Origin: Mytilus galloprovincialis
Taxonomy: Eukaryota > Mollusca > Bivalvia > Mytilida > Mytilidae
Assembly (NCBI RefSeq): GCF_965363235.1
Contig: NC_134843.1
Span: 87,825,795 to 87,889,794, forward strand
DNA length: 64,000 nt
Direction: 5' to 3'
Positions 1-59,455 of this stretch are shown here, piece by piece (within the stretch, counting starts at the first letter, position 1; every line of letters begins with the position of its first letter). The notes beneath the pieces are model-generated. The model saw nothing but the letters and a program-made list of their open reading frames with translations, did not search any database and was not told the origin of the DNA. Made by a program: the position numbers and the translations under genes.

Positions 1-560
1 AAGTTTAAAAATAAATTTCCCCTTTATCAAAATTCATTGCAGATTTTGCATATATTGGCAGCATAAAATACAATATTTACATTGTAAAAAGCAATTTCAA
101 TTTTCATTATCTGACATGTGTAGTAAAAAATCTCATCAACAATACTAGCATGATTAAAAATAACATTACGAATATCTGAATATACAGGACAGTTAAACAA
201 AACATGTTTTTCATATTCAACGTCATCAGTACAGTTAAAACATACTCTATTTTCAATTTCAATATTTTCATAACGACCAGTTTCAACTCTAATGGGTGCT
301 ACGCCACATCTAAATTTTGCTAACGCGCTCTCGTATATACCTGGTACATTTTTAAAATGTCAAATAGTTTTGTGCATCATATACACGTCTGAACATTGTA
401 TTTGTACGTAATCTATTTTTATCATTCGACATATATAATTTTGTCAAACCATTCTTCCTTAAATTTTCCGAAATATACTTTTTCGATATTCTTAATTAAA
501 TCTGTGTTTGAAATAGCACCATTATACAAATATTCCATATCAAGTTCTTGAAACTTTTTG
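1..560 (-). pseudogene. LINE ORF2 C-terminal fragment, decayed
   Basis: Read on the minus strand, about 60-320 encodes a Cys/His-rich segment containing RVETGRYENIEIENRVCFNC followed by the spacing C-x2-C...E-x2-H-x4-C. This is the zinc-binding tail commonly seen at the end of mollusc LINE-type polymerases. The part further 5' (about 320-560) still reads as relic protein but is interrupted by stops (after KIIYVE), so the copy is dead. The same family tail appears at 23150-23416 on the other strand. The clade cannot be assigned from this tail alone. Confidence 0.6.
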
Positions 561-964
561 TACTCCTAAATGCCATTATTTACTCTTTTACATTATCGCG
601 GCATGTGTTACCTATATATCTATTATTATTCCCCCTTTTTAGCAAAAAACTAAATAGGTTGACAAACCGTTCGTCCGTCAACTTTTTTCTGTAATGCTTC
701 ATGTATTGGTTTGATTTTTGAAGATAATCATGTCATAAAGAGAGACAGATCAAGTATGATTTTCGTTCCGATTTGGGCAATTTGTGTTGAAGTTGTGGCC
801 CTAGGAAAACAAAAACTGCTTGAAATCTCAGTTTTACGCGCTATTTTCTTTAAACATTTATCTATTGGTAGTAAATCTAGTTTATAATCAAATATGTAAC
901 CCTGTACAATAATGAAATAGTTCTTACACTAATAACTTGAATATTTGCACTTTGTATATTTTAG
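561..964. other. Intron or upstream sequence of the HSPA12-like gene
   Basis: AT-rich sequence with no supportable gene. It ends in a pyrimidine-rich tract and the TTTTAG acceptor at 959-964 that opens the first HSPA12-like exon. No exon for the N-terminal phosphate-1 loop was found here, so that exon should lie left of the window. Confidence 0.5.
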
Positions 965-3702
965 GCTATAACTAAGAATATGTCAATGAAAGATGTAACA
1001 GGAAAGGCTGCCAGAGCATTGGATGTGTTTTCTTTGTCAATCCGGGCACTAATTGATCACTTTCTAAAACAAGTGGATGTACCTCTGTCCAAAATACGCT
1101 GGGTTTTAACTGTCCCTGCAAGCTGGTCAGACATAGCTAAACAGTTCATGGCGGGAAGCGCAATGATGGTATGTTTTACAATCTGATTGGACAGAAGACA
1201 GTATCTAAATCAGCTTGCTAAGTTTAAGCGTTTCTCGCATTATCAAATCCTACATTCACATGTGACAAACTTATAGACTAGATTTAGTGTTGGTTATGGT
1301 TATCATAGTGGTGTGATATAAGTATGAACAAGCACGTATTTTTGATGCTGTTTTCTGTAGAAGATATGTATAAGGTTATGTAAAACAGATCACGACGAAG
1401 AAGTAATATGATGGTTTCAATTAAAGAAAGAAAAAAATTGTAATTGTCAAGCTACGGCCCTTAAGATAGGTCGTGCAATATCACCAAAAAAACCTTCTAC
1501 CATTTAGGATCATTTAGGGTATTATTCAACAGTTACATTTTCAAAGTAATTTTTTTAATTTGTATAATACATCGAACATATCATTGTTAAACACTATCCA
1601 AACTTGCTCATTTCAGGCAGGAATTCCAGAGGAACAACTAATCATAGCGTTAGAATCAGAGGCTGCAGCCATATATTGTGAAAATCTGAATTCAGAAAAA
1701 CGTAAAGGATCAGATCATAGATATTCTATTGAAAACGACGGAAGTAAATTTATGATGGTGGACATTGGTGGTAAATACATATACATAAGACATATGAAAT
1801 GATGTAGTTTTGTTTATTCATCACAAATACAATTTACAATGGTGTAATTGCAATTGAGACCAACATAGTTTAATTCAGTAACATTTTAGCAACTTCAAAA
1901 ATGTGTGACCTTCTTGTCATATGTGTAAACCTGTATTCAAAGACCATCTGTTTTAAGAGACCACTTTTACCTACTCTCTTAAGTGGTCTCTTAATAAATG
2001 TTTGACTGTATATCTATCATCTTATATGCAATCATAACAATTCATATGTGTTGTTGTTTCTACAGACCCATCTCTTTGGTGTCTATTTTTTTCAAATTTG
2101 ATTTCTTGTTTATAGATTTGAAAAGGTGGTAAATTTATATAGTAACATTAGCAAACTCTTTGAGTGTTGCAGCCTATTTAGTTGAATGTGAAACCAAAGG
2201 TAATATCTTTTATATGTATACCGGTGTCCATGTGCGCTAAACAGGATAGTTCTTTTGATTACTAGTATGTGTCTCGCATTTGCTGTTTCATTGACATGTA
2301 TCTAGCTTCTTTTTATATTCAAAGTCTAGGTTTGTTCTCCTATAGTGCAAAAGGTTGCGATTTCGATCACTGGCCCGATCAAAACAAAGATTTGCTAATG
2401 TGTATTTGCTTTTATTTCTTTAATGTTATGTTGAATATATATATATGGTAACTAACTGGCCCTTTCTTGTAAATGTTTTTCATTTGCAGCGAAAAAGCAG
2501 TTCCAAGAAAAAGATGATTTCTCTTATTATGATATTTCGTTTATCTTTCAGAATATACTTATCAAATACCTTGGTTATTATTCACACTTATGATTGAACT
2601 TATTATAAATAATATATCTAATTTAAATCAATTATTTTTTTTTCTAGGAGGCACAACTGACATTACAGTTTTAGAAAAATTAGCAGACAACAAAATGAAA
2701 CAGCTTTGTTCATCGACCGGTGGCATATTTGGTGGCATGTCCGTAGATGAAGAATATATTGAAATGGTAGAAAACATCATTATGGGAGCAGTGATGCGGA
2801 AATTAAAATCTGATTACCCACAGTCATATCTCGAAATGTTAAGTAGCTTTGAATATCTAAAGCAAAATATAGATTCAAGTCTAGCAGGACAGATCTCTGT
2901 TAGCATACCATATGAAGTGATTAGTTCCCTTTGTAAAAGTCAAGCGGGCGAGACATTTGAGTCATTGTTAGAATCGTCAGAGTACAGTGGGCGAGTATCA
3001 TTGGAAAAGGGCAAACTTAAGATAGATGCTGGTCTTTTAAGGTCATTCTTTAATAAACCTATTGTAGAAATGATAACATTGATGAAAGAATGTTTCAAAA
3101 AATGCGAACCTGAGAGAGTACGAATAATTCTTGTCGTAGGCGGATTTTCGCAGTGTCCATTCCTACGTGAGGCCCTTAAGACAGCTTTTCCAAGAAAGCT
3201 TATAAAATTTCCACATGAACCCAATCTAGCTGTCTTAAAAGGAGCAGTCTTGTTTGGTCATGAACCCAGTTTTATTGCGTCAAGGGTTGTTCGATATACA
3301 TATGGTGTAGAAGTGTCTAAGGATTACGACCCAAGACTTCATTCCTCAGACAGACGAGTCATTGTAGATGGAGAGGCTTTGTGTCGAGGTGCATTCGATA
3401 CATTTATGGCGGCAGAAACTTCAGTTCCCATTGGAACAGCTATTACAGAAACATACACTACAACCGAAAAAAATCAAAAGTCGCATTATCTGCCTATTTA
3501 CATTTCAACAAGTAAAAATCCAAGATACACAGACGATGACGAGTCGTCTTACTTGGGTACTATTAAAGTGCCGATACCAAATCCTAGTGAGATGTACCGA
3601 GATGTCAAGGTCAACTTTTATTTCGGTTTTACAGAACTTGAAATTGAAGCAATAGACGTAGACACAAATGAAAAATGTGAAGTAAAATTTGATCTTTTGT
3701 AA
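965..3702 (+). CDS. HSPA12: HSPA12A/B-like HSP70-fold protein, 3' three exons
   Basis: Three exons join in frame: 965-1168, 1617-1770 and 2648-3702 (1413 nt, 470 residues plus stop). All junctions have AG/GT sites (GTATGT at 1169, GTAAAT at 1771; acceptors TTTCAG and TTCTAG). Seen: WVLTVPASWSDIAKQFM (residues about 43-58), AGIPEEQLIIALESEAA at the start of exon 2, the phosphate-2 motif VDIGGGTTDIT (about 115-125) built across the exon 2/3 junction, and the adenosine motif VGGFSQCPFLREAL (about 280). The C-terminus follows the HSPA12 pattern (RYTYGVEVSKDYDPRLH, then a beta-rich tail ending FDLL). Family members are cytosolic, divergent HSP70 ATPases of about 600-680 residues without a canonical substrate-binding domain. 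The first 130-200 residues are therefore missing to the left, and the ATG at 980 is internal. The huge last exon matches the few-exon structure of expanded invertebrate HSPA12 genes. Whether it is the A or B type cannot be said. Confidence 0.9.
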
Positions 3703-4061
3703 ACCAGTATGCATTTAATTTGTTACGTATTACAAACGTAGTTTGTTTGAATGAGAAGTTTACAGCGAACAGTGTTGGGTACAGACTATCAAGGTCCATT
3801 TCTGTGAGAGACTACATTGTCTCTGAGATTGAAAATGTACATGTGTTTTGTACCAAGTGTGTTCCCGATTTTTCATGAAAGATATCTAATTCGTAGCATG
3901 ATTTTGTTTGGATGAGTAGTGCTTGTTGTATAACACTAAAAAGACCCTTTGTCTTTCTTTTAGCATTTTGCTTTTTGTTTTTAAATTAAATGATGATTTT
4001 TACTTATTGTAAGATTTATATGTTCTTCTTTCAAGACTCGGAGACATGAAATGTTATTAAA
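3703..4061 (+). other. Probable 3' UTR of the HSPA12-like gene
   Basis: AT-rich and non-coding, directly after the stop codon. There is no clean AATAAA; an AATTAAAT stretch near 3984 is a weak candidate. Nothing else was recognised before the hairpin repeat begins. Confidence 0.45.
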
Positions 4062-4370
4062 GGAATGTCTGTAATATTTTTTCTGTCTATGAAGAAATAA
4101 CATAAAAAATTTGGTGCACACTGAATAACGCGAGTAGCGGGTTATTTAACAGTGTGCACCACATTTTTTATGTTATTTCGAATAGACAGAAAAAATATTA
4201 CAGTCATTTCTTATAATTTAATTCTAAATTCCATTTCAAACCGTAGAAAACCATGAAAAACGTTGCTGACGTAACGGTCACATGACTAAATTATGTCTAT
4301 GGGCTGATAACAAAATAACGTCAGCCAATCAGAAGACGCGTTACATCCAAAATTAAATTATATATATATA
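4062..4370 (+). repeat. Hairpin-headed dispersed repeat, copy 1
   Basis: About 310 bp. The first 135 bp (4071-4202) fold back on themselves: the arm with GGTGCACACTGAATAACGCG pairs with an arm reading TTATTTAACAGTGTGCACC, and both are bordered by AAATAACATAAAAAAT-type and TTTTTTCTGTCTAT words. The tail holds TGACGTAA, GGTCACATGAC and the CCAAT-box phrase AGCCAATCAGAAGACGCG. The same sequence lies inverted at 25070-25376, which proves it is a dispersed family. No coding potential, and no clear target duplication at the tail end. Confidence 0.8.
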
Positions 4371-5140
4371 TCAGCAAGTCACTTGTCTGTTTTTGACATA
4401 TGTTATCATCCAGATATCTTTCGATTTCTTGCTTGTTTGGGTTGCACTTTCTTTGACACGTAACCACTTCTTCTTTTATTTATGTGCATGTTGATATTTT
4501 TTTTTATCTTTATGTATGGTGATCTTTATTTTATGGCCATGTTGCAGTACACGTTTTCGGACGTATATTTGATTTTCCGTGTTCTGTATCGTCCTCAGGC
4601 CATAAAGACCCCCGTTTTCTAAGCGACACGTGCGTGCAAGTCATATTAAATTGTTGAAATCAAATATTTACCTACAAATGGGTGCCGTAGTAGGTCCACT
4701 GCCGTTTTGAGCAAGGATTTTTTTACATGCATTATTATATGTACAAAAAATGTATAGTACACACAAATAAAATTATCATGGGCTTTTTTGACCGACTGTG
4801 AAATTTAATACTGATAAATATAACTCAACTTCTAAGATCATAATTATCATGATGATTAACGCACGGATATGTTCCTGATATTGTAACTACAATCCCGTCC
4901 TTGTTCCGAATGTGAACTACCGAATTATACTAACCGGTTTTGCCGAACATGAACAACACGACGGATGCCACATCTGGAGCAGGATCTGCTAACCCTTCCG
5001 GAGCACCTGCCGGAGATCACTTTGGTAGGGTACGCGTTGCTCAGTTTTTAGTTTTCCATGTTGTGCTTTGCTACTATTAGTATTGGTTGTTTTTTGGTGT
5101 TTTATTCATTGAGTTGTCTGTTAATTTTCGACTTATGATA
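4371..5140. other. No host gene; part of a dispersed repeat
   Basis: Contains a short open stretch at 4949-5025 (MNNTTDATSGAGSANPSGAP...) running into a GTAGGG donor-like site. From memory this phrase belongs to an abundant mytilid repeat, so it is not called as a gene. The rest is T-rich with no recognisable structure. Confidence 0.35.
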
Positions 5141-5662
5141 TAGATATAAGAATATGTGGTATGAGTGCCAATGAGACAAATCTCCATCCAAGTCATAATT
5201 TGTGTAAAAGTAACCCGTTATAGGTCAAAGTACGGTCTCCAATACGGAGCTTTGCCAGGGCTCCCATTGAACAGCTAGCTATAAAGGGCCCCCAAAAATG
5301 ACTAGTGTGGAACCATTCAAACGGGAAACCCAACGGTATAATCTATATAAAAAATAAAAACGCGAAACGAGAAACATTTATGAACCACATCAAGAAACGA
5401 CCACTACTGAACATCAGATTCCTGACTTAGGACAGGTGCAAACAAATGCAGCGGGTTGTAACGATTTAGGTACCTTCCTGCACCTTTATCTGAAACAATA
5501 GTGTAACATCACAACATAGAAAGACGTACTATAAAATATCAATGGAAATGGTTTAACTCAATCAAAAGACATATCAACAATAGTGAACATACACTGAACG
5601 AATAAAAATAATTTTAAAAAAAACCAATAACCTTGATAAAAAAAAATCCGCCCTATACAATA
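5141..5662 (+). repeat. Dispersed mytilid repeat (GTGGTATGAGTGCCAATGAG family)
   Basis: Begins near ATGTGGTATGAGTGCCAATG and continues with AGCTATAAAGGGCCCC, TCAAACGGGAAA and TGACTTAGGACAGGTGCA. Related, diverged copies occur in this window at 17237-17710, 56170-56345 and 59273-59455, and a block with the same wording (ACAGAAATTAACAACTATAG) is built into the arms of the composite transposon at 5669-12899. The family is non-coding. The composite element sits immediately to its right. Confidence 0.6.
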
Positions 5663-5710
5663 ATATACTACGGAAGCCGATAAGGGCCATTCAAAAAAAA
5701 AAAAAAAATC

Positions 5711-5900
5711 ATGTCGTAATTACGACATAGCATGTCGTAATTTCGACATAACATGTCGCTTTTACGACATCACTATGACGTTATTTCGACATAACATGTC
5801 GTTTAAACGACATCGCTATGTCGTAATTTCGACATAACATGTCGTAATAACGACATCACTATGTCGTTATAACGATTTAGCTATGTCGTAATAACGACAT
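5711..5900. repeat. Nine-unit 18-bp dyad array, left arm of copy 1
   Basis: Nine consecutive 18-bp palindromes of form ATGTCG-N6-CGACAT, separated by 3- or 4-bp spacers (AGC, AAC, CACT, AAC, CGCT, AAC, CACT, AGCT). The hexamer core varies (TAATTA, TAATTT, TTTAAA, TAATAA, TTATAA) while the CpG-containing half sites are kept. The period is 21-22 bp, two DNA turns. Confidence 0.9.
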
Positions 5901-8900
5901 CGCTATATATATAAAAAAAATATGTATTATGATTGCCAAGAGACTAAATGATACAGAAATTAACAACTATAGGTCATCATAATGCCCCCAATAATTAGAA
6001 AAGCCCCCGCATAGTCAGCTATAAAAGAGGGACGAAAGATACCAGAAGGAGAGGCCCCGAAATGCTGTGTGGCAGACAGTGTTATTTATAAATTATTAGC
6101 TCCCTTGGTAAAACTCCAAATTTCATATTTAATGTGTTTGATTGTTGAATAATTTACATGAAGCTTAATAAGTATATATTTGTTAATTGCATAGCTTTTG
6201 CTATTTGAATCCATTGGTTAAAGATATTTATTTATATTGTAAAGTTTAATATTTGCATCGTCGCAAAATCTTTGGTTACCTTCTTTGGTTTCCTTCTGTG
6301 AGAAACTTATATATTTTATAGATCCTATTAAAGTTCATTAAATTACCGACGTATCGTGGGAGGGCTATATAGCATGTCAAACGGTATAAACTTCTCAAGA
6401 ATAATATGTGGATTGACATGCAGTTCTACCAAGGCAAGCTTAGCTCTCCACCTCCCATTTCATAAGCGCAAACTATATGGCTTCTTGAAATAAGGGTGAA
6501 TTAAAGTATTGATTGCTCTATTTCTACTTTCAAACGTTGGGCACGATGTTCCTACAACCCCACGTTACACTTTTAAAATTAAAAAATGCGGCGTCGAAGA
6601 GGGTTTTTGACTTCGATTAATTTTTGCAAGTTTTATTCTGTTTTCTATATGTTGGTTGATTCCGGTTCTGCTCGTTTTGTGATGCAATTTTATCATAAGT
6701 TACCACAAGTTGTGGAAATCGATTTAATAATGTTTACCCTTTAAGTTATTTCAACTAAAAATGCAGAACTGTCGCAAGTAATGTAGGAAGGAAAGATGGG
6801 ACGGAAGTACATGTATACGGTTTTCCATAAAAAAAATTTTTTTTAGATGTACAAAACTTTTATCATAGGATGTTTAACTTTCAAGGTGCATATCATATGT
6901 CATTGTAAAATTTCTATATCTTAATTCAACCCCAATACAAATATATCTGACACTGCAAGTAAATCGAACATTTTAACCTTGGTTAAATTTGAATCATGAG
7001 AATTGTATTTTCCCTGGCACACAAGTTGTCGAAATACACCCCTTCAATTACTTGAACCTTGGCTTGAGAATTATTTCCCAAGTCATCTATAGTGTTCAAC
7101 TTCTGATATACATTTTAAAATATAGTAATCTACTCCTGGATCGTCCGCGAAAACGGCTAATATAATCCCGGGTTTTTATTAATTCGATGAAACAGTTTTC
7201 GTCGCTGTTTGGGATTCGTCTATCAATTACCTCCATTTCATGCACAAGTTTATATTGACGAAAAGTTCCGGCTTCGCTAGTACATGAATTACTTTCATCA
7301 CGACAGTTATAACATGAATAGCAGGACAAATCGCGAAATAAAACATTCCGTGAACTGGTATTAAGTCTTTTAATATTGGTGATTGCACCTTACTGAAGTG
7401 ACGACTTTAAATGGTCTATTTCGGAGTACTTCCGCAACATAAATTTCAATTCGCATTTTACATTCAGAGGACTGTCTTGTTGTCTCCAATTTGTCTTTGC
7501 AAAAGTTGGAATAAGTTCATGTAATGAGATTTTTTCCCCATTTCCCCATTCTTTTAAATAAATCGTTAAAAGCTATAAACGATTAATAAAAATTGCAAAA
7601 TTTAACCTGTGTCGAACCTATGTCCCCGGGCGGAGTCTATATCAACATGCACTATTCTTTTTTCGGCAGCAATCATCAACCTCTTTTTCCAAATTTCATA
7701 ACACGATTTTTTGTTAATTATCATGAACATTTAATTGAAACTTTAGCACATGTAACGTCGGAAATTAGCGTCTTTCGGATTTTAGACGTTTTCAAACGTT
7801 TGGACAAATTGGCTACCGTTTTGTAATGTGTGGAATCATTTTATTATTCTTTAAGACCCAAATATGTAGTTATAAGAAAAGAATCTTGGCATTTTTTACT
7901 CTTCGTGTATCTAACTTTTGTTTTGATCAATTATAAAAAATACACGTTAACTGCATTGAAAAATGAAATATCAACTTGGACAAAATGGCTACCGTTTGAA
8001 AAACGACTGTGTAGAGAAGATTTTATTGAATCAGCAATATTTGAACTCACGAACAATGAGGCAAATATTTGTACTTTTGTTAGATATTATTATTGTCTTA
8101 CTCTTTTTATTCATTTTCTGCTATATATTCTTATAAAATTCACTTTCAGTCGTTGAGTTAACGAAATACGTCGTTGGACATTTTTCTTATTCCAGCTTAA
8201 TATGCAACCACCGAGTCAAATGAAATTTGGCAAAATAACGGCTTTAACGCCGCCACAAAGAACCGACACATGTCGCTGTTCCTGCCAAGAATAAAAAAGA
8301 TCAGAGAATAAGAAATAGGGTCACTTTAAATAAGAGTTAAAACAGTTTTTCATAAATGTAACGTTGGACATCCGTTTTTTTTTCACATAGCTTTGTTATT
8401 TTAATCCTCAAATAAACTAGGTAATTCTTACTATATGATCAAGAGCTATAAAAACATATTTTAAAACATATATTGATTTTGTTTTAATTATTGGTTCGTG
8501 TTTTCTAACACTTTTATTTTGTTTTGCGGATGAAATTTCGAAGATTCTGTTTTAAATCCTAGGGGTTGTAGGAACATCGTGCCCACCGTTTGAAAGTAGA
8601 AATAGAGCAATCAATACTTCAGTTCCCCCTTATTACAAGAAGCCATGTAGTTTGCGCTTATTCAAAGGGAGGAGGAAAGCTTGGCTTGCCTTGGTAGGAC
8701 TGACTGTATGTCAGTCCTCTTATAGTTCCACATATTATTGTTCCAACAATCATTAGAAGTTCTTATCGTTCTTGACAGGCTAAGTGGCCCAGCCATAGTC
8801 GGTTCTATATTAAACTTCATTAGGATCTATAAAATATATAACTTTATCACAGAAGGTAACCAAAGAAGGTAACCAAAGATTTTGCGACGATGCAAATATT

Positions 8901-9238
8901 AAACTTTACAATATAAATAAATATCTTTAACCAATGAATTCAAATAGCAAAAGCTATCCAATTAATAAATATATACTTATTAAGCTTCATGTAAATTATT
9001 TAACAATGAAATACATTAAATATGAAATTTGGAGTTTTACCAAGGGAGCTAATAATTAATTAATAACACTGTCTGCCACACAGCATTTCGGGGCCTCTCC
9101 CTCTGGTATCTTTCGTCCCTCTTTTATAGCTGACTATGCGGGGGTTTTTCTAATTATTGGGGGCATTATGATGACCTATAGTTGTTAATTTCTGTGTCAT
9201 TTATACGGAAGCCGATAAGGGCCATTCAAAAAAAAAAA

Positions 9239-9428
9239 ATGTCGTAATTACGACGTAGCATGTCGTAATTTCGACATAACATGTCGTTATTACGACATAG
9301 CTTTGTCGTAATTTCGACATAACATGTCGTTATAACGACATCGCTATGTCGTAATTTCGACATATCATGTCGTAATAACGACATCACTATGTCGTTATAA
9401 CGACAAAGCTATGTCGTAATAACGACAT
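9239..9428. repeat. Nine-unit 18-bp dyad array, left arm of copy 2
   Basis: Exactly the same length (190 bp), unit count (nine) and nearly the same spacer order as the array at 5711-5900. It begins 35 bp inside the TACGGAAGCC terminus at 9204. A few half sites are altered (ACGACGT, TTGTCG, ACGACAA). Confidence 0.9.
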
Positions 9429-12400
9429 CGCTATATATAAAAGAATATGTATTATGATTGCCAAGAGACTAAATGACACAGAAATTAACAACTATAGGTC
9501 ATCATAATGCCCCCAATAATTAGAAAAGCCCCACACAGTCAGCTATAAAAGAGGGAGATACCAGAGGGAGAGCCCCCGAAATGCTGTTTGGTAGACAGTG
9601 TTATTAATTAATTATTAGCTCCCTTGGTAAAACTCTAAATTTCATATTTAATGTATTTCATTGTTAAATAATTTACATGAAGCTTAATAAGTATATATTT
9701 GTTAATTGCATAGATTTTGCTATTTGAATCATTGGTTAAAGATATTTATTTATATTGTAAAGTTTAATATTTGCATCGTCGCAAAATCTTTGGTTACCTT
9801 CTTTGAATAGATTCAGTGAGAAACTTATATATTTTATAGATCCCAAATGATTAAACCGACCGAGTATGTTAGGCGTAACAGTCAATCATACTTAATAAAG
9901 ATAAAAAAAAAAAACAGTCAATCATACAAGGCAAGTCTAGCTATCCATCTTCCTTTAAATAAGTGCAAACTTCAAGGCTTTTTGTAATAAGGTTGAATTG
10001 AAGTATTGATTGCTCTATTTCTACATTCAAACGGTGGGCACGATATTCCTACAACGCCTAGAATTTAAAACAGAATCTTCGAAATTTCATCCGCAAAACA
10101 AAATAAAAATAAACGAAAACACGAAACAATATTGTAACAAACTCAGTATATGTTTTAAATTATGTTTTTACAGCTCATGATCATATACTAAGTAATATCT
10201 AGTATATTTGAGGATTAAAATAAGAAAGCTATGTGAAAAAAACGGATGTCCAACGTTACATTTATGAAAAACTGTTTTAACAAAAATAACTCTTATGTAT
10301 AGTGATCCTATTTCTTATTCTCTGATCTTCTTGATTCTTGGCAGGAACAACGACATGTGTTGGTTGTCTGTGCCGTTAAAGCCGTTATTTTGCCAAATTT
10401 CATTTGACTCGATGGCTGCAAATTAAGCTGGAATAAGAAAAATGTCCAACGACGTTTTTCATTAACTCAACGACTGAAAGTGAATTTTATAAGTAGATAT
10501 AGCAGAAAATGAATAAAAAGAGTAAGACAATAATAATATCTAACAAAAGTACAAATATTTGCCTCATGTGAGTTCAAATATTGCTGATTCAATAAAATCT
10601 TCTCTACACAGTCGTTTTTCAAACGGTAGCCATTTTGTCCAAGTTGATATTTCATTTTTCAAAGCAGTTAACGCGTATTTTTGATAATTGATAAAAACAA
10701 AAGTTAGATACATGAACAGTAAAAAATGCCAAGATTCTTTTCTTATTACCTATACATTTGGTTCTAAAAGGAATAAAATGCTTCCACACATTACAAAACG
10801 GTAGCCAATTTGTCCAAACGTCTGAAAACGTCTAAAATCCTAAAGACGCTAATTTCCGACGTTACATGTGCTAAAGTTTCAATTAAATGTTCATGATAAT
10901 TAAAACAAATCGTGTTATGAAATTTGGAAAAAGAGGTTGATGATTGCTGCCGAAAAAAAAAGAATAGTGCATGTTGCTATAGACTCCGCCCGGAGACATA
11001 GGTTCGACACAGGTTAAATTTTGCAATTTTTATTAATCGTTTATAGCTTTTAACGATTTATTTAAAAGAATTGGGAAATGGGGAAAACATCCCATTTCAT
11101 GAACTTCGTCCAACTTTTGCAAAGACAAACTGGAGACACCAAGACAGTCCTCTAAATGTAAAATACGAATTGAAATTTATGTTACGGAAGTACTCCGAAA
11201 TAGATCATTTAAAGTCGTCACTTCAGTAAGGTGCAATCACCAATATTAAAAGACTTAATACCAGTTCACGGAATGTTTTACTTCGCGATTTGTCCTGCAA
11301 TTCATGTTATAACGGTCGTGATGAAAATAATTCCTGTACTAGCGAAGCCGGAACTTTTCATCAATATAAACTTGTGCATGAAATGGAGGTAATTGAAAGA
11401 CGAATCCCAAACAGCGACGAAAACCGTTTCATCGAATTAATAAAAACCCGGGATTATATTTGCCGTTTTCGCGGACGATCCAGGAGTAGATTACTATATT
11501 TTAGAATGTATATCAGAAGTTAAACGCTATAGATGACTTGGGAAATAAAGCCAAGGTTCAAGTAATTGAAGGGGTGTATTTCGACAACTTATGTGCCAGG
11601 GAAAATACAATTCTATTCAAATTTAACCAAGGGTAAAAATGTTCGATTTACTTGCAGAGTGTCAGATATATTTGTATTGGTTGAATTAAGATATAGAAAT
11701 TTTACAATGACAGATGATATGCACCTTGAAAGTTATACATCCTAAAAAACACAAAAATATGGAAAACCGTATACATGTACTTCCGTCCCATCTTTCCTTT
11801 CTACATTACTTGCGACAGTACTGCATTTTTAGTTGAAATAACTTAAAGGCTAAACATTATTAAATCGATTTCCACAACTCGAGGTAATCTTTGATAAAAT
11901 GACATCACAAAACGAACAGAACCAGAATCAACCAACAATAAAAAAAAAAAACCAGAATAAAACTTGCAAAATTAAACCAGGTCAAAAACCCTCTTCGACG
12001 CCGTATGTTTAAGTGTAACGTCGTGTTGTAGGAATATCGTGCCCAACGTTTGAAAGTAGAAATAGAGCTTTCAATACTTCAATTCACCCTTATTACAAGA
12101 AGCCATGTAGTTTACGCTTATATAAAGGAAGATGGAATGCTTGGCATGCAATGTCAGTCCTCATAATTTCCACGTCTTACTTGTTTATTTCAAACTTGTC
12201 TGGCTGTACAGCCCATCCACGGCAGGTAACTTATAAAACTTAGACGGGATTTAAAAATATATAAGTTTCTCACTGAAGGTATCCAAAGAAGGTAACCAAA
12301 GATTTTGAAACGATGCAAATATTAAACTTTACAATATAAATAAAAAATCTTTAACCAATGAATTCAAATAGCAAAAGCTATGCAATTAACAAATATATAC

Positions 12401-12671
12401 TTATTAAGCTTCATGTAAATTATTTAACAATGAAATACATTAAGTATGAAATTTGGAGTTTTACCAAGGGAGCTTATAATTAATTAATAACACTGTCTGC
12501 CACACAGCATTTTGGGGACTCTCCCTTTGGCATCTTTCCTCCCTCTTTTATAGCTGACTAATCGGGGGCTTTTCTTATTATTGGAGGCATTATGATGACC
12601 TATAGTTGTTTTAAAATTCTGTGTCATTTAGTCTCTTGGCAATCATAATACATATTCTTTTATATATAGCG

Positions 12672-12861
12672 ATGTCGTTATTACGACATAGCTATGTCGT
12701 TTTAACGACATAGTGATGTCGTTATTACGACATGATATGTCGAAATTACGACATAGCGATGTCGTTATAACGACATGTTATGTCGAAATTACGACAAAGC
12801 GATGTCGTAATAACGACATGTTATGTCGAAATTACGACATGCTATGTCGTAATTACGACAT
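12672..12861. repeat. Nine-unit 18-bp dyad array, right arm of copy 2
   Basis: Reverse complement arrangement of the other two arrays: nine dyads in 190 bp, ending 38 bp before the right terminus at 12899. Spacers read from the terminus are AGC, AAC, CGCT, AAC, CGCT, ATC, CACT, AGCT, matching the other arms in order. Confidence 0.9.
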
Positions 12862-12905
12862 AAAATATTTTTTTTGAATGGCCCTTATCGGCTTCCGTAA
12901 TATAC

Positions 12906-25563: not shown

Positions 25564-25845
25564 GGCAGCAACCATTTGATTTTCTGGGGGGGGCTATGGT
25601 TTTTTTTTCTGTGCAAACTTTTTTTTTCGCCTGCGGCGAAAAACAATCTATTTTTTTCGCGACAAGTCGAAAACAATTTTTTTATTTCAATATTAGCATT
25701 ACACATAGTGGCAGCTGAGGGTGAAACAAACAAATTTTTTTTCTCAGAATCAAAAACAAATTATTTTTTTCTCCAAAAACTGGAAACAAACTTTTTTTTC
25801 CAAAAAAAACCATAGCCCCCCCCAGAAAATCAAATGGTTGCTGCC
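25564..25845 (+). mobile_element. Harbinger-like MITE, copy 1 (282 bp, TAA duplication)
   Basis: Perfect inverted ends of at least 33 bp starting GGCAGCAACCATTTGATTTT, flanked by TAA on both sides (25561-25563, 25846-25848). A 3-bp TWA duplication and GGC-type ends fit PIF/Harbinger non-autonomous elements. A second copy of identical length is at 39433-39714. The open frame across it (79 codons, very Phe-rich) is a by-product of T-runs. Confidence 0.85.
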
Positions 25846-38183: not shown

Positions 38184-40018
38184 TAAAACAGGTTGGGAAC
38201 AAACCCCCTGTATGGTGATTATACCTCTATAGAGAAATAATCCTTCTTTAGAGGGATAAAATTATCCCTCTATAGAGGGGTATTTTTGTTTGCACTGGAT
38301 TTAAAGCAAATTAGGGCAGAATGGCATTTTCTAGTTATATTGGCTATAATCTCTAGCATTATATGCATCAACATATGCACTTTACTAAAAATTGGGATAA
38401 CCAGTTTTCTGCTAAAGTGACAAAACTTGCAATCTATTGTAAACCTATCTGAACACCTGATCAACAACAAAAGGAATAGTTGACCTTTAAATTTCATGTT
38501 AAATGTAGTGTTCTGGGGTTCTATAGCTATATATGAAAGCCTAATGTTCTATAAATGTTCTTTATTTCCATACAATACATACTTCCCAGGGGAAGGTAGA
38601 AAGCTGAAATTAATAAAATGTTCCTATTACAATATGTCTTAGTATAATAAACAAAAATACACAAATTAGGTAAGTATCAGGTAAGTACACATGCACTAAC
38701 AGTATATGAAAACACACACCTAAATCAATCAATCAGTCAAAAGCTCACACATCTAAATCCTAGTTAAACACTTGCAAAGTGTCCTATAAAACCTGTGCCT
38801 ATAAATATGTTACATGCTTATATATGCATGCCTAAACCATGACTACAAACTAGCACATAAGCATTCCTAAGGTGTAAATATACATAACCAACAATTCCTA
38901 ATGTGTAAGTTTGCCTATCACTACATGTAAGAAAAGATAATGGTAGGTAACCTAGACAGAGAATTTTACTTTTGTGTGTGTAATAAAATAAATGCAAAAC
39001 ACCTAAAAAATATATATGTCTATGAAGGTAAGTATCTAAAATACTTTTATATAGGTTTACAAAGTGTGTATTGCCTGGACCAAGTTAGAAATTCAGTTCG
39101 TATGAACCAAAAAATAGAACCCTTATTTACGGGTTGAAAACACAAAAATGTATACCTTGCACTATTTGTGCATACTTCTAAATACATAATAAAAATATAA
39201 TCAGGCAGGGAAACAAACTTACTCTGTGGGGGACTTCTATTATTCTAATTTTGTTTTGATTGAACTGAAAACGTGTTCTATGGCTGAATTTTGAGAGCTA
39301 TTAAGGAAAGGGGATGGGAACTACCCTAAAATGTGTTTTCTCTAAACCTGTACAAAGAAGGATAACTCTATACCAAAAAAGTGAAACATCACATTAAATC
39401 TAACAATAGAAATTCTGTTCAGTGAGGCATAAGGCAGCAACCATTTGATTTTCTGGGGGGGGCTATGGTTTTTTTTTCTGGACAAATTTTTTTTTTCGCC
39501 TGCGGCGAAAAACAATCTATTTTTTTCGCGACAAGTCAAAAACAATTTTTTTCTTTCAATTTTAGCATTACATATAGTGGCAGCTGAGGGTGAAACAAAC
39601 AATTTTTTTTTCTCAGAATCAAAAACAAATTATTTTTTTCTCCAAAAACTGGAAACAAACTTTTTTTTCCAAAAAAAACCATAGCCCCCCCCAGAAAATC
39701 AAATGGTTGCTGCCTAAGTGAGTAGAATTTACCTGATCATCACAGCTTTCAATCATGGTGAACAATAGATTTTATATTTAGTCAGATAAGCATCAAACTG
39801 GACATTTGCATATTAAATTAAGTACATCAATTGGTGCATCAACTGTTCCAGGTTACTGCCATAATAAGTACAGAATGCCATTCTGCCCTATATTGATTTA
39901 AATCCAGTCTAAACAAAAATATCCCTCTATAGAGGGATAATTATACCCCTCTATAGAAGGATTATCCCTCTATACAGGTATAATTACCATATAGAGGGTT
40001 TGTTCCCAACCTGTAAAA
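38184..40018. mobile_element. 1.8-kb TIR element with TAAAA duplication and nested MITE
   Basis: Inverted ends start CAGGTTGGGAACAAACCC at 38189 and end with its complement at 40013. The direct repeat TAAAA flanks both (38184-38188, 40014-40018). The inverted arms run about 145 bp and are built from repeated TCCCTCTATAGAGGGATA-type palindromes, then the shared word CAGAATGGCATT. The interior has no recognisable transposase, so it is non-autonomous. The Harbinger-like MITE at 39433-39714 is inserted inside it and is therefore younger. A 5-bp duplication with CA... ends could fit hAT5- or Transib-like groups; unassigned. Confidence 0.85.
39433..39714 (+). mobile_element. Harbinger-like MITE, copy 2 (282 bp, TAA duplication)
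   Basis: Same length and orientation as the copy at 25564-25845 and differing at only a few positions. TAA flanks at 39430-39432 and 39715-39717. Nested within the 38189-40013 element. Confidence 0.88.
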
Positions 40019-43606: not shown

Positions 43607-46586
43607 CCGGTGTCATATGGTATTTTGAACCCCCTAAAAAGTGAACCCGGGGTCAAAATACCATGCGGTAAAATGACCCCGGGGTCATTATACCGCATGG
43701 TATTTTGACCCCGGGGTCATTTTTCACATATGGTATTTTGAACCCCCCTGCGGTATATTGAACCCCCTGTTTTTGATAAATAGTATTGGAGATAATCTAA
43801 TTTACAATTTATTGGCTATCATTTTTTTAAATTTGTGGTTTTAAGTAGGGGGTTCAATATACCACAGGGGGGTCAAAATACCATGGCTAAGCAAAATTTT
43901 CAAAATATCTTTTCCAGCATTTTTAACACATACAAACCACTTATTGGAGTATTATAACTATGTTAAGGGGTTAGAATAGCTTCAATTTTTGAAATTCAAG
44001 GTCTATAGTAGGGGGTTCAATATACCGCAGGGGGGTCAAAATACCATGGCTAAGTAAAATTTTCAAAATATCTTTTCCAGTATATTAAATACATACAAAC
44101 TACTTATTGGAGTATTATAACTATGTTAAGGATTTAGAATAGCTTGAATTTTTGAAATTCAAGGTCTATAGTAGGTTGTTCAATATACCACAGGGGGGTC
44201 AAAATACCATGGCTAAGTAAAATTTTCAAAATATCTTTTCCAGTATATTAAATACATACAAACTACTTATTGGAGTATTACAACTATGTTAAGGAGTTAG
44301 AATAGCTTGAATTTTTGAAATTCAAGGTCTATAGTAGGGGGTTCAATATACCGCAGGGGGGTCAAAATACCATGGCTAAGTAAAATTTTCAAAATATCTT
44401 TTCCAGAATATTAAATACATACAAACTACTTATTGGAGTATTACAACTATGTTAAGGAGTTAGAATAGCTTGAATTTTTGAAATTCAAGGTCTATAGTAG
44501 GTTGTTCAATATACCACAGGGGGGTCAAAATACCATGGCTAAGTAAAATTTTCAAAATATCTTTTCCAGAATATTAAATACATACAAACTACTTATTGGA
44601 GTATTACAACTATGTTAAGGAGTTAGAATAGCTTGAATTTTTGAAATTCAAGGTCTATAGTAGGTTGTTCAATATACCACAGGGGGGTCAAAATACCATG
44701 GCTAAGTAAAATTTTCAAAATATCTTTTCCAGTATATTAAATACATACAAACTACTTACTGGAGTAATATAACTATGTTAAGGATTTAGAATAGCTTGAA
44801 TTTTTAAAATTCAAGGTCTATAGTAGGGGGTTCAATATACCGCAGGGGGGTCAAAATACCATGGCTAAGTAAAATTTTCAAAATATCTTTTCCAGTATAT
44901 TAAATACATACAAACTACTTATTGGAGTATTATAACTATGTTAAGGAGTTAGAACCTTGAATTTTTGAAATTCAAGGTCTATAGTAGGGGGAAATTTTAC
45001 TTTGCCATGGTATTTGGACCCCCCTGCGGTATATTGAACCCCCTTTTCTAGGCCTTTAATTTCAGAAATTCTATCAATTCTAACTCTTTTATGTAGTTAG
45101 AATACACCCATAGGTAGATGTATTTATTAAACTTGCTGGAAAAGATATTTTGAAATTTTACTTTGTCATTGTATTTTGACCCCCTGCGATATATTGAACC
45201 CCTTACTATAGACAATTCAAAAAAATCTGGCAATTTTAGCTCTTATTTGTAGTTAATATACACACACAAGTAGTTTGTATGTATTAACTTTGATGGAAAA
45301 GATATTTTGAAAATTTTACTTTGCCATGGTATTTTGACCCCCCTGCGGTATATTGAACCCCTCACTCTAGACCTTTAATTTAAAAAGTTCTGGCATTTAT
45401 AACTTTTTAATGTAGTTAGAATACACAAATAAGCAATTTGTATGTATTAAACTTGCTGGAAAAGTTATTTTGAAAATTTTACTTTGCCATGGTATTTTGA
45501 CCCCTCTGCGGTATATTGAACCCCCTACTCAAGGCCTTTAATTTCAGAAATTCTGGCAATTCTAACTCTTTTATGTAGTTAGAATACACAAATAAGTAGT
45601 TTCTATGTATTAAAATTGCTGGAAAAGATATTTTGAAAATTTTACTTTACCATGGTATTTTGACCCCCCTGCGGTATATTGAACCCCTTACTATAGACAA
45701 TTCAAAAAAATCTGGCAATTTTAGCTCTTATTTGTAGTTAATATACACACACAAGTAGTTTGTATGTATTAACTTTGATGGAAAAGATATTTTGAAAATT
45801 TTACTTTGCCATGGTATTTTGACCCCCCTGCGGTATATTGAACCCCTTACTATAGACAATTCAAAAAAATCTGGCAATTTTAGCTCTTATATGTAGTTAA
45901 TATACACACACAAGTAGTTTGTATGTATTAACTTTGATGGAAAAGATATTTTGAAAATTTTACTTTGCCATGGTATTTTGACCCTCCTGCGGTATATTGA
46001 ACCCCCTACTCTAGGCCTTTAATTTCAGAAATTCTGGCAATTCGAACTCTTTTATGTAGTTAGAATACACAAATAAGTAGTTTGTATGTATTTAACTTGC
46101 TGGAAAAGATATTTTTTAAATTTTACTTTGCCATGGTATTTTGACCCCCTCCCCCTTTTTTTACCATGGAAAATCAAAACTACCCTTATATATATATATA
46201 CATATGTTATAATTACAAATAATTAAAGCATTCAAGCTACATATGGTCTAGTTATAATGTGTCAATAAGTATTTTGAATGACATTTTGTTGGTAAAGACT
46301 TCAGAGCACTTATACCAAGCAAAGATATTTCTTTTAATTGAGCATGGAAAATGTACCTCCCCTTCTTGTATGAATGATTTTTTAATCTATGATAAGCTTT
46401 AGAATAATGTAAAATGTTCTAATATTCATCTAGGATGAAAAAAACAGGGGGGTTCAATTTACCATGGGGGTTCAATTTTCCATACAGGGGGGGTTCAATT
46501 TACCATGGGGGGGTTCAATTTACCATAGCGGTATTTTGACCCCGGGGTCAATTTACCATGGGGTTCAAAATACCATATGACACCGG
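43607..46586. repeat. Inverted satellite element: seven 163-bp units, then eight reversed
   Basis: Termini are inverted copies of CCGGTGTCATATGGTATTTTGAACCCC. Between them lie seven direct units with CCATGG at 43881, 44044, 44207, 44370, 44533, 44696 and 44859, a constant 163-bp step. The pattern then flips near 45000, and eight reversed units follow with the matching site at 45005, 45166, 45324, 45487, 45650, 45809, 45968 and 46131 (158-163 bp steps). Each unit carries a TTCAATATACCGCAGGGGGG-TCAAAATACCATGG block and an AT-rich spacer. The two end domains are rich in ACCCCGGGGTC and ACCATGCGGTA palindromes. No coding frame and no target duplication were found. Confidence 0.85.
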
Positions 46587-56169: not shown

Positions 56170-56345
56170 TAAAAAAAGGGATTTGGTGTGATTGCTAATG
56201 AAACAACTCTCCATAGGAGACCAAATGATACAGAAATTAACAGCTATAGTTCAGTGTAAGGGCCTTCAACAATGAGCAAAACCCATACTGCATAACCAGC
56301 TTTAAAAGGCCCAGAAATCACAAATTTAAAACAATTCAAATGAGA
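56170..56345 (+). repeat. Dispersed repeat copy (GTGGTATG...CAATGAGAC family)
   Basis: TTTGGTGTGATTGCTAATGA, GAGACCAAATGATACAGAAA, CAACAATGAGCAAAACCCAT. Lies in the B-C intron of unit 1; absent from the same place in unit 2. Confidence 0.7.
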
Positions 56346-59272: not shown

Positions 59273-59455
59273 AAATGTGGTATGTATGGCAATGAGACAG
59301 CTATCAACAAGAGACCAAATGATGTGGATGTAAGCAACTAAATGTCACCCTATGCCTTTAACAATGAGCAAAACCTATATTGTATAGTTAGCTATAAAGG
59401 TTCAACATGACTTAATGTTAAAAACAATCAAGTATGTTAATAGCCTGACTATAAA
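59273..59455 (+). repeat. Dispersed repeat copy (GTGGTATG...CAATGAGAC family)
   Basis: AATGTGGTATGTATGGCAAT, AAGAGACCAAATGATGTGGA, ACAATGAGCAAAACC and AGTTAGCTATAAAGG. Diverged from the copies at 5141 and 56170. Confidence 0.7.

Follow-up and report, generated by a model that had tools for sequence, protein, structure and literature searches.

How do two copies of one fold-back transposon family come to lie within a single target duplication, when one of the two lacks the outer part of an arm? This question is raised by a pair of elements in the window, i.e., the whole 64,000-nucleotide (nt) stretch of Mytilus galloprovincialis DNA that was analyzed (G000:C6:87825795-87889794, in an assembly of 1.385 Gb). 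The pair, which is 7,231 nt long, consists of two fold-back units in opposite orientations, u1 (3,535 nt) and u2 (3,696 nt); Table 1 gives the features. The tip of u1, TACGGAAGCC, adjoins the left hexamer ATATAC. The other end of u1, ...TGTGTCATTTA, directly abuts the u2 tip, also TACGGAAGCC, and the right tip of u2, GGCTTCCGTA, is followed by the second ATATAC. An initial annotation of the locus had placed the end of the first copy at CATTTA and the tip of the second at the next base, and this is correct to the base. When u1 was aligned with the reverse complement of u2, the two were 88.5% identical over 3,563 columns, which bears out the earlier description of a 7.2-kb near-palindrome. Positions 1 to 3535 of u1 correspond to positions 3696 to 267 of u2, and by this alignment the right arm of u1 lacks exactly the counterpart of the outer 266 nt of u2. 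The annotation had argued that simple nested insertion would leave an arm remnant after position 12899; we agree, and no leftover u1 arm follows this position.

Both units have the structure of fold-back elements. The arms of u2, 852 and 875 of its 3,696 nt, are long, inverted, and 87.7% identical, and all three complete arms of the pair carry palindromic tandem arrays of 196 to 197 nt made of 21-, 22-, and 43-bp repeats. The window has other repeats as well. At positions 43844 to 46149, two abutting arrays of 163-bp repeats in opposite orientation meet at 44991/44992, forming a large inverted satellite-like pair. The same array with a 30-bp period occurs at 25754 to 25810 and again, about 13.9 kb away, at 39623 to 39679, which points to duplication of a segment.

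Table 1. Features of the fold-back pair (positions in the window).
Feature	Position	Strand	Basis
Left 6-bp target duplication ATATAC of the whole pair	5663..5668	.	Single site copy in 12/12 paralogous empty sites
u1 fold-back element, inverted relative to u2, outer 266 nt of right arm missing	5669..9203	-	Alignment to u2 3696-267, 88.5%
u1 left arm, complete, tip TACGGAAGCC	5669..6561	+	u1 277-893 pairs with 3535-2894
Palindromic 21/22/43-bp tandem array ATGTCGTAATTACGAC, u1 left arm	5710..5906	.	Repeat detection
u1 right arm, inner portion only, ends at CATTTA	8562..9203	-	Alignment
CATTTA, putative left copy of u2's own target duplication in the u1 arm; right copy lost	9198..9203	.	Inferred, with nests L038 and L075 at the same spot
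Joint of cut u1 arm and intact u2 left tip	9203..9204	.	One exact genome match
u2 complete fold-back element	9204..12899	+	Alignment
u2 left arm, 5'-type	9204..10055	+	852 nt pairs with 2822-3696
Tandem array, u2 left arm	9239..9434	.	Repeat detection
u2 right arm, 3'-type, u2-subfamily sequence nearly to tip	12025..12899	-	Alignment and site comparison
Tandem array, u2 right arm	12666..12861	.	Repeat detection
Right copy of ATATAC	12900..12905	.	Exact match to left copy, and empty sites

The outer flanks of the pair match at 6 of 6 positions; the match rate of random hexamer pairs within the window was 0.00066. A dispersed repeat matched the joined flanks in many of its copies; the 40 candidates scored gave 66 matches, including the window. 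We fetched 12 copies of this repeat, chosen for a match crossing the insertion point; they are paralogues, not alleles. In all 12, the alignment ran across the insertion point and there was one copy of the hexamer site, which was exactly ATATAC in seven (L077, L079, L080, L081, L085, L087, and L088) and had a substitution or a 3-nt insertion in the other five. Comparison with these sites shows the inserted material to be the pair plus one ATATAC, with no u1 right arm past 12899. The outer ends of the pair come from two elements and lie within one target duplication, as in a macrotransposon. The annotation's claim that ATATAC bounds the pair and not single copies therefore holds, and the empty sites with one ATATAC that it had proposed to look for exist in paralogous copies of the host repeat, as distinct from other individuals. 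It is extremely improbable that the two units are unrelated neighbors, u1 truncated by chance and u2 inserted alongside. Unpaired tips among the matches listed may include truncated copies, but chance would have had both to give the pair matching hexamers on its two sides and to place the cut of u1 within the 15-nt spot that the other nests use (see below), and the paralogous empty sites also disfavor this explanation.

We searched the assembly for the joint and for the family tip. A 26-nt pattern across the joint had one exact match in 1.38 Gb, the window itself, and 29 matches at ≤3 mismatches. For the 14 of the other 28 that were on the + strand, we compared the flank outside the tip with u2; 12 had no u2-like sequence, and two (L020 and L023) had a short u2-like piece at least 100 nt away. 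Pieces resembling the arm just inside the insertion spot (about u2 positions 259 to 348) are found without a complete element around them in these two loci, where they end near u2 position 259, and in the window at 56170 to 56315 and 59275 to 59398. The insert of another element, L039, matches the arms and both of these window stretches.

The 24-nt family tip occurred 663 times at ≤2 mismatches and its reversed control not at all, so chance is excluded as the source of these element ends. Among the 100 exact tips listed, all on C1 and C2, we counted by eye 38 adjacent left-right pairs; 32 spanned 2.9 to 4.2 kb and the other six 4.7, 6.1, 7.4, 8.6, 24.8, and 25.0 kb. We fetched 20 two-ended elements (L039 to L058), which were picked and are not a random sample; L038 (3/6) was omitted as a nest, and L059, for which no right end was found, was left out too. 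Hexamer duplications were complete in 16 of the 20, or in 17 if L047 is read from its outer tip. The values below 6/6 were those of L052 and L053 (5/6), L047 (4/6), and L057 (1/6). The longer elements contain non-u2 DNA (4.0 kb in L039, 2.4 in L040, 4.3 in L043, 1.06 in L042, and 1.5 in L044). There was no second full dimer among the 20. Thus, in the comparison of single units and dimers that had been suggested, most sampled copies are 3- to 4-kb single units with their own 6-bp duplication.

As had been noted from the sequence, the pair encodes no recognizable transposase. No stop-to-stop open reading frame (ORF) is longer than 109 amino acids (aa), and of the 14 ORFs of ≥60 aa, the 12 searched against Pfam, i.e., all except the two in the arrays, gave no match above the cut-off. 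The interiors of u1 and u2 share a pair of open stretches of 60 and 97 aa, broken by a stop and on opposite strands (7096 to 7572 and 11047 to 11523), and these too had no Pfam match above the cut-off. Polinton/Maverick elements, which also make 6-bp duplications, are 15 to 40 kb long and carry a virus-like gene set; the units here are 3.5 to 3.7 kb and have no recognizable genes.

The ends of the pair fit another group. TACGG...CCGTA, i.e., TA..TA termini, is found at both ends of the pair and in the fetched copies, and the usual duplication is 6 bp, by the counts above and the empty sites. Passages of PMC10045372 give TA..TA ends as constant in complete IS3EU families and present in most GingerRoot elements, with 6-bp target duplications. 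By termini and duplication length, the ends of the pair are IS3EU-like and fit IS3EU/GingerRoot, as those passages describe these groups. The mussel units differ in having arms of about 850 to 890 nt, tandem arrays, and no transposase.

A source of transposase was sought elsewhere in the genome. IS3-like integrase ORFs of 250 to 358 aa do exist, and the one in L063 matches Pfam rve (2.6e-17). Short frames of this kind (L062, L063, L067, and L076), which are related to integrases of bacterial IS3, have many broken relatives elsewhere in the genome. We examined these four ORFs with their flanks and found no 10-nt family tip at 0 or 1 mismatch. At 2 mismatches, there were 0, 3, 0, and 4 tips around L062, L063, L067, and L076, respectively, and the shuffled means were 1.2, 1.0, 1.3, and 1.9. 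The near-identical integrase copies L063 and L076, considered as the autonomous partner, share a stretch with no TACGG tip at its borders. ORF listings of the interiors of L039, L043, and L061 yielded no transposase with family ends. L061 is the right 7.9 kb of the tip pair spaced 24.8 kb apart; judged by the look of its ORFs, it contains a LINE-like retroelement at L061:2268-5736, between the fold-back tips.

If u2 inserted into the arm of u1, other copies may have done the same. A pattern scan for a tip within 30 nt of arm sequence at the spot where u1 ends found three loci: the window, L038, and L075. Two more hits, at C2:112.57M and C11:52.05M, look like chance. A control 31-nt window elsewhere in the arm gave no tip joints, and a scan with the array pattern gave L041 alone. 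All of these scans depend on a perfect 10-nt tip, so that mutated tips escape them. L041 was considered as a second composite with a remnant and was rejected; the 69 nt in question are the tip itself, repeated in tandem without a difference.

In L038, element B (497 to 4067) lies within the left arm of element A, and the arm of A continues on both sides of B. The inner hexamers are unmatched (CCGTAA and AAAAAC); AAAACT is repeated only when extra bases are admitted, 7 on the left and 1 on the right. Element A's own right tip is damaged, and only the inner right end is intact. In L075, the outer hexamer GTTACG flanks 2981 to 5167 on both sides, and beyond the inner right tip (4944) come TCTTGG, the duplication of the inner insertion, and then the rest of the right arm. 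The other joint of L075 (4092) reads CCAAGAGACTAAATGACAC; inverting the inner segment gives the expected GTGTCATTTAGTCTCTTGG followed directly by the tip. Such an inversion would be easy because 2981 to 4944 is 96% identical to its own reverse complement. L075 was at one point a candidate for a second dimer lacking the remnant, but it becomes a simple nest once the inner segment is inverted, and we counted it as an intact nest.

All three target sites fall between about 258 and 272 on u2, which is suggestive of a 15-nt insertion hotspot in the arm, represented by three events. Since the remnant is still present in the nests L038 and L075, whose insertions are at this arm spot too, nested insertion is the likely first step and probably the origin of the pair. 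On this point, we depart from the annotation, which had played down insertion as the origin. A similar arrangement is the maize double Ds, in which one element lies inverted inside a second copy of the same element. In double Ds, the rest of the interrupted element is retained, whereas the mussel pair lacks the distal remnant.

What the pair lacks relative to L038 and L075 is the distal 272 nt, i.e., one duplication copy plus the outer arm. An artifact could account for this: an intact nest in which the two adjacent copies of the 266-nt right arm were collapsed during assembly would yield exactly the observed sequence. We consider this distinctly improbable, because the assembly retains both copies of the arm in the comparable nests, L038 and L075, and its contigs are chromosome-sized.

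The remnant could also have been lost in place. Here, u1 would have inserted at ATATAC alone, so that ATATAC is its own duplication, u2 would have inserted into its right arm, and the 272-nt remnant would have been deleted by slippage or by single-strand annealing between the right arm of u2 and the outer arm of u1, which would lie next to it as a direct repeat. The arms of a nest are indeed adjacent direct repeats of about 266 nt, rich in 21- to 43-bp repeats, and arms of this family are unstable, as the identical 69-nt tandem duplication of the L041 tip and the inverted center of L075 illustrate. The nests at the same spot, however, have kept the remnant. The right end of the pair bears on this explanation, as a deletion by simple crossover would leave u1-type bases outside the crossover point.

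As stand-ins for the lost right tip of u1, we used the 5' tips of L058 and L059, which are about 93% identical to u1; there is a third near relative at C4:98.89M, but the u1-type set was limited to these two. The u2 relatives were the five arms closest to the right arm of u2 (L050R, L052R, L044R, L051L, and L053L), ranked on the region 266 to 400 nt from the tip, which the loss could not have touched. Nine sites in the outer right 272 nt of the pair separate the u2 relatives from L058 and L059, and the pair has the u2-type base at eight of them. The exception, site 103, has the u1-type base, which is also present in the left arm of u2 and in L053 and L044. The u2-type site farthest out is at 35 nt from the tip; the last two informative sites toward the tip are within an A/T run, and without both of them the nearest is at 99 nt. 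The right end also lacks the longer repeat array of L058 and L059. In simple percent identity, the outermost 266 nt of the right end are equally close (96.6% each) to L058, L059, and the left arm of u2. The left 201 nt of L042 exactly match the right 201 nt of the pair.

A simple crossover would thus be confined to the outermost 34 nt of the 272 (98 nt without the two sites in the A/T run), for which the odds, if crossovers are uniform, are by our own estimate about 12 to 36%. Annealing with one-sided repair could nevertheless leave u2-type bases up to the tip. Loss in place is a serious possibility, to which we give less than even odds. With u2-type bases extending nearly to the tip, movement of the pair as one is favored over deletion in place. 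The annotation had offered two explanations, a joined dimer that moved as one or an arm rearrangement after arrival; the first is now favored, and the second is narrowed to a rearrangement within the outer 34 to 98 nt.

Our preferred reading, to which we assign a probability of about 0.5, is that the left end of u1 and the right end of u2 transposed as one unit, a macrotransposon, after nested insertion. Both units would be nonautonomous fold-back transposons that belong to one family and have IS3EU-type ends. By analogy with the two nests, the first step would have been insertion of u2 into the right arm of u1, at the preferred spot some 266 nt inward of the tip, with duplication of CATTTA. 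We infer that a transposase supplied from elsewhere then brought together the left end of u1 and the right end of u2, passing over the inner tip. The 272-nt distal remnant (CATTTA plus the outer arm of u1) would have stayed at the donor, and the 7,231-nt composite would have inserted into the ATATAC of a dispersed repeat. Mixed-end transposition needs no coincidence in the position of a crossover. The predicted donor nest would have the joint TGTCATTTATACGGAAGCC at one side of u2 and CATTTAGTCTCTTGG past the right tip of u2; neither a second copy of the joint nor a donor nest was found in this assembly.

Two similar composite products with their own duplications also speak for this reading. 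L047 has a tip at position 116 (CATTAC followed by TACGGAAGCAATCGG), then 85 nt of hairpin, then a complete fold-back element, and then CATTAC; the 85 nt fold as a hairpin with a z score of -6.7. Read from its sequence, L047 combines the left portion of a short hairpin element and a whole fold-back within one duplication. The missing part is only about 13 nt, and slippage is a possible alternative. The hairpin element (L047:116-200) shares the tip TACGGAAGC and has a different subterminal sequence, suggesting that one transposase may serve several families.

In the second product, a fused-arm composite, a right arm is cut at u2 position 366 and joined to a 3' arm from position 2853. The joint is identical in L043 and L060, and by match pattern alone it is also present on C12 (two inverted copies) and C6. 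Duplications were GAATGT (6/6) at L043, GTAAAT (6/6) on C12 (both inverted copies, counted once), and ATAAGG/ATACGG (5/6) on C14; the far end of the C6 copy was not found in the 701 bases fetched. The two C12 copies (L069 to L072; C12:44966826-44971754 and C12:44996982-45001740) are the same fused-arm insertion with its flanks, inverted and about 30 kb apart, and represent a local inverted duplication or an assembly effect. Because fused-arm insertions carry their own duplications, it appears that a joined structure can move repeatedly in this fold-back family. Both products also have explanations by slippage or recombination.

Events of the macrotransposon kind are already known from maize Ac/Ds, where, as passages of PMC9910405 describe, two distinct elements each contribute an end to a single unit. 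The maize events differ in their 8-bp duplications and in that excision was observed (PMC9910405, same passages), whereas the mussel move is putative and the pair has lost one inner end. The Drosophila Galileo/foldback elements, as portrayed in parts of PMC3573991, resemble the mussel units in their long, internally repetitive, and variable inverted arms and in having recombinant arms and chimeric copies. However, the Galileo chimeric copies described there have nonmatching 7-bp flanks (PMC3573991), whereas the outer flanks of the mussel pair match at 6/6. A literature search found no paper combining "Mytilus" and "foldback element," and neither IS3EU nor foldback appears in the main text of a bivalve transposon survey (PMC10294476).

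A wider proposal, that nesting followed by mixed-end transposition is a regular route to compound elements, with the pair a young product and the fused-arm composite an older, amplified one, is in our judgment unlikely at present. If it is true, copies would prefer each other's 15-nt arm spot, and the resulting nests would then be mobilized by mixed pairs of ends. The pair is a natural case of two transposon copies that apparently moved as one, with nests of the precursor type in the same genome, and here mixed-end transposition and in-place arm recombination can be distinguished at one site in other individuals. Fold-back elements that have no genes can, it would appear, grow into larger compound elements.
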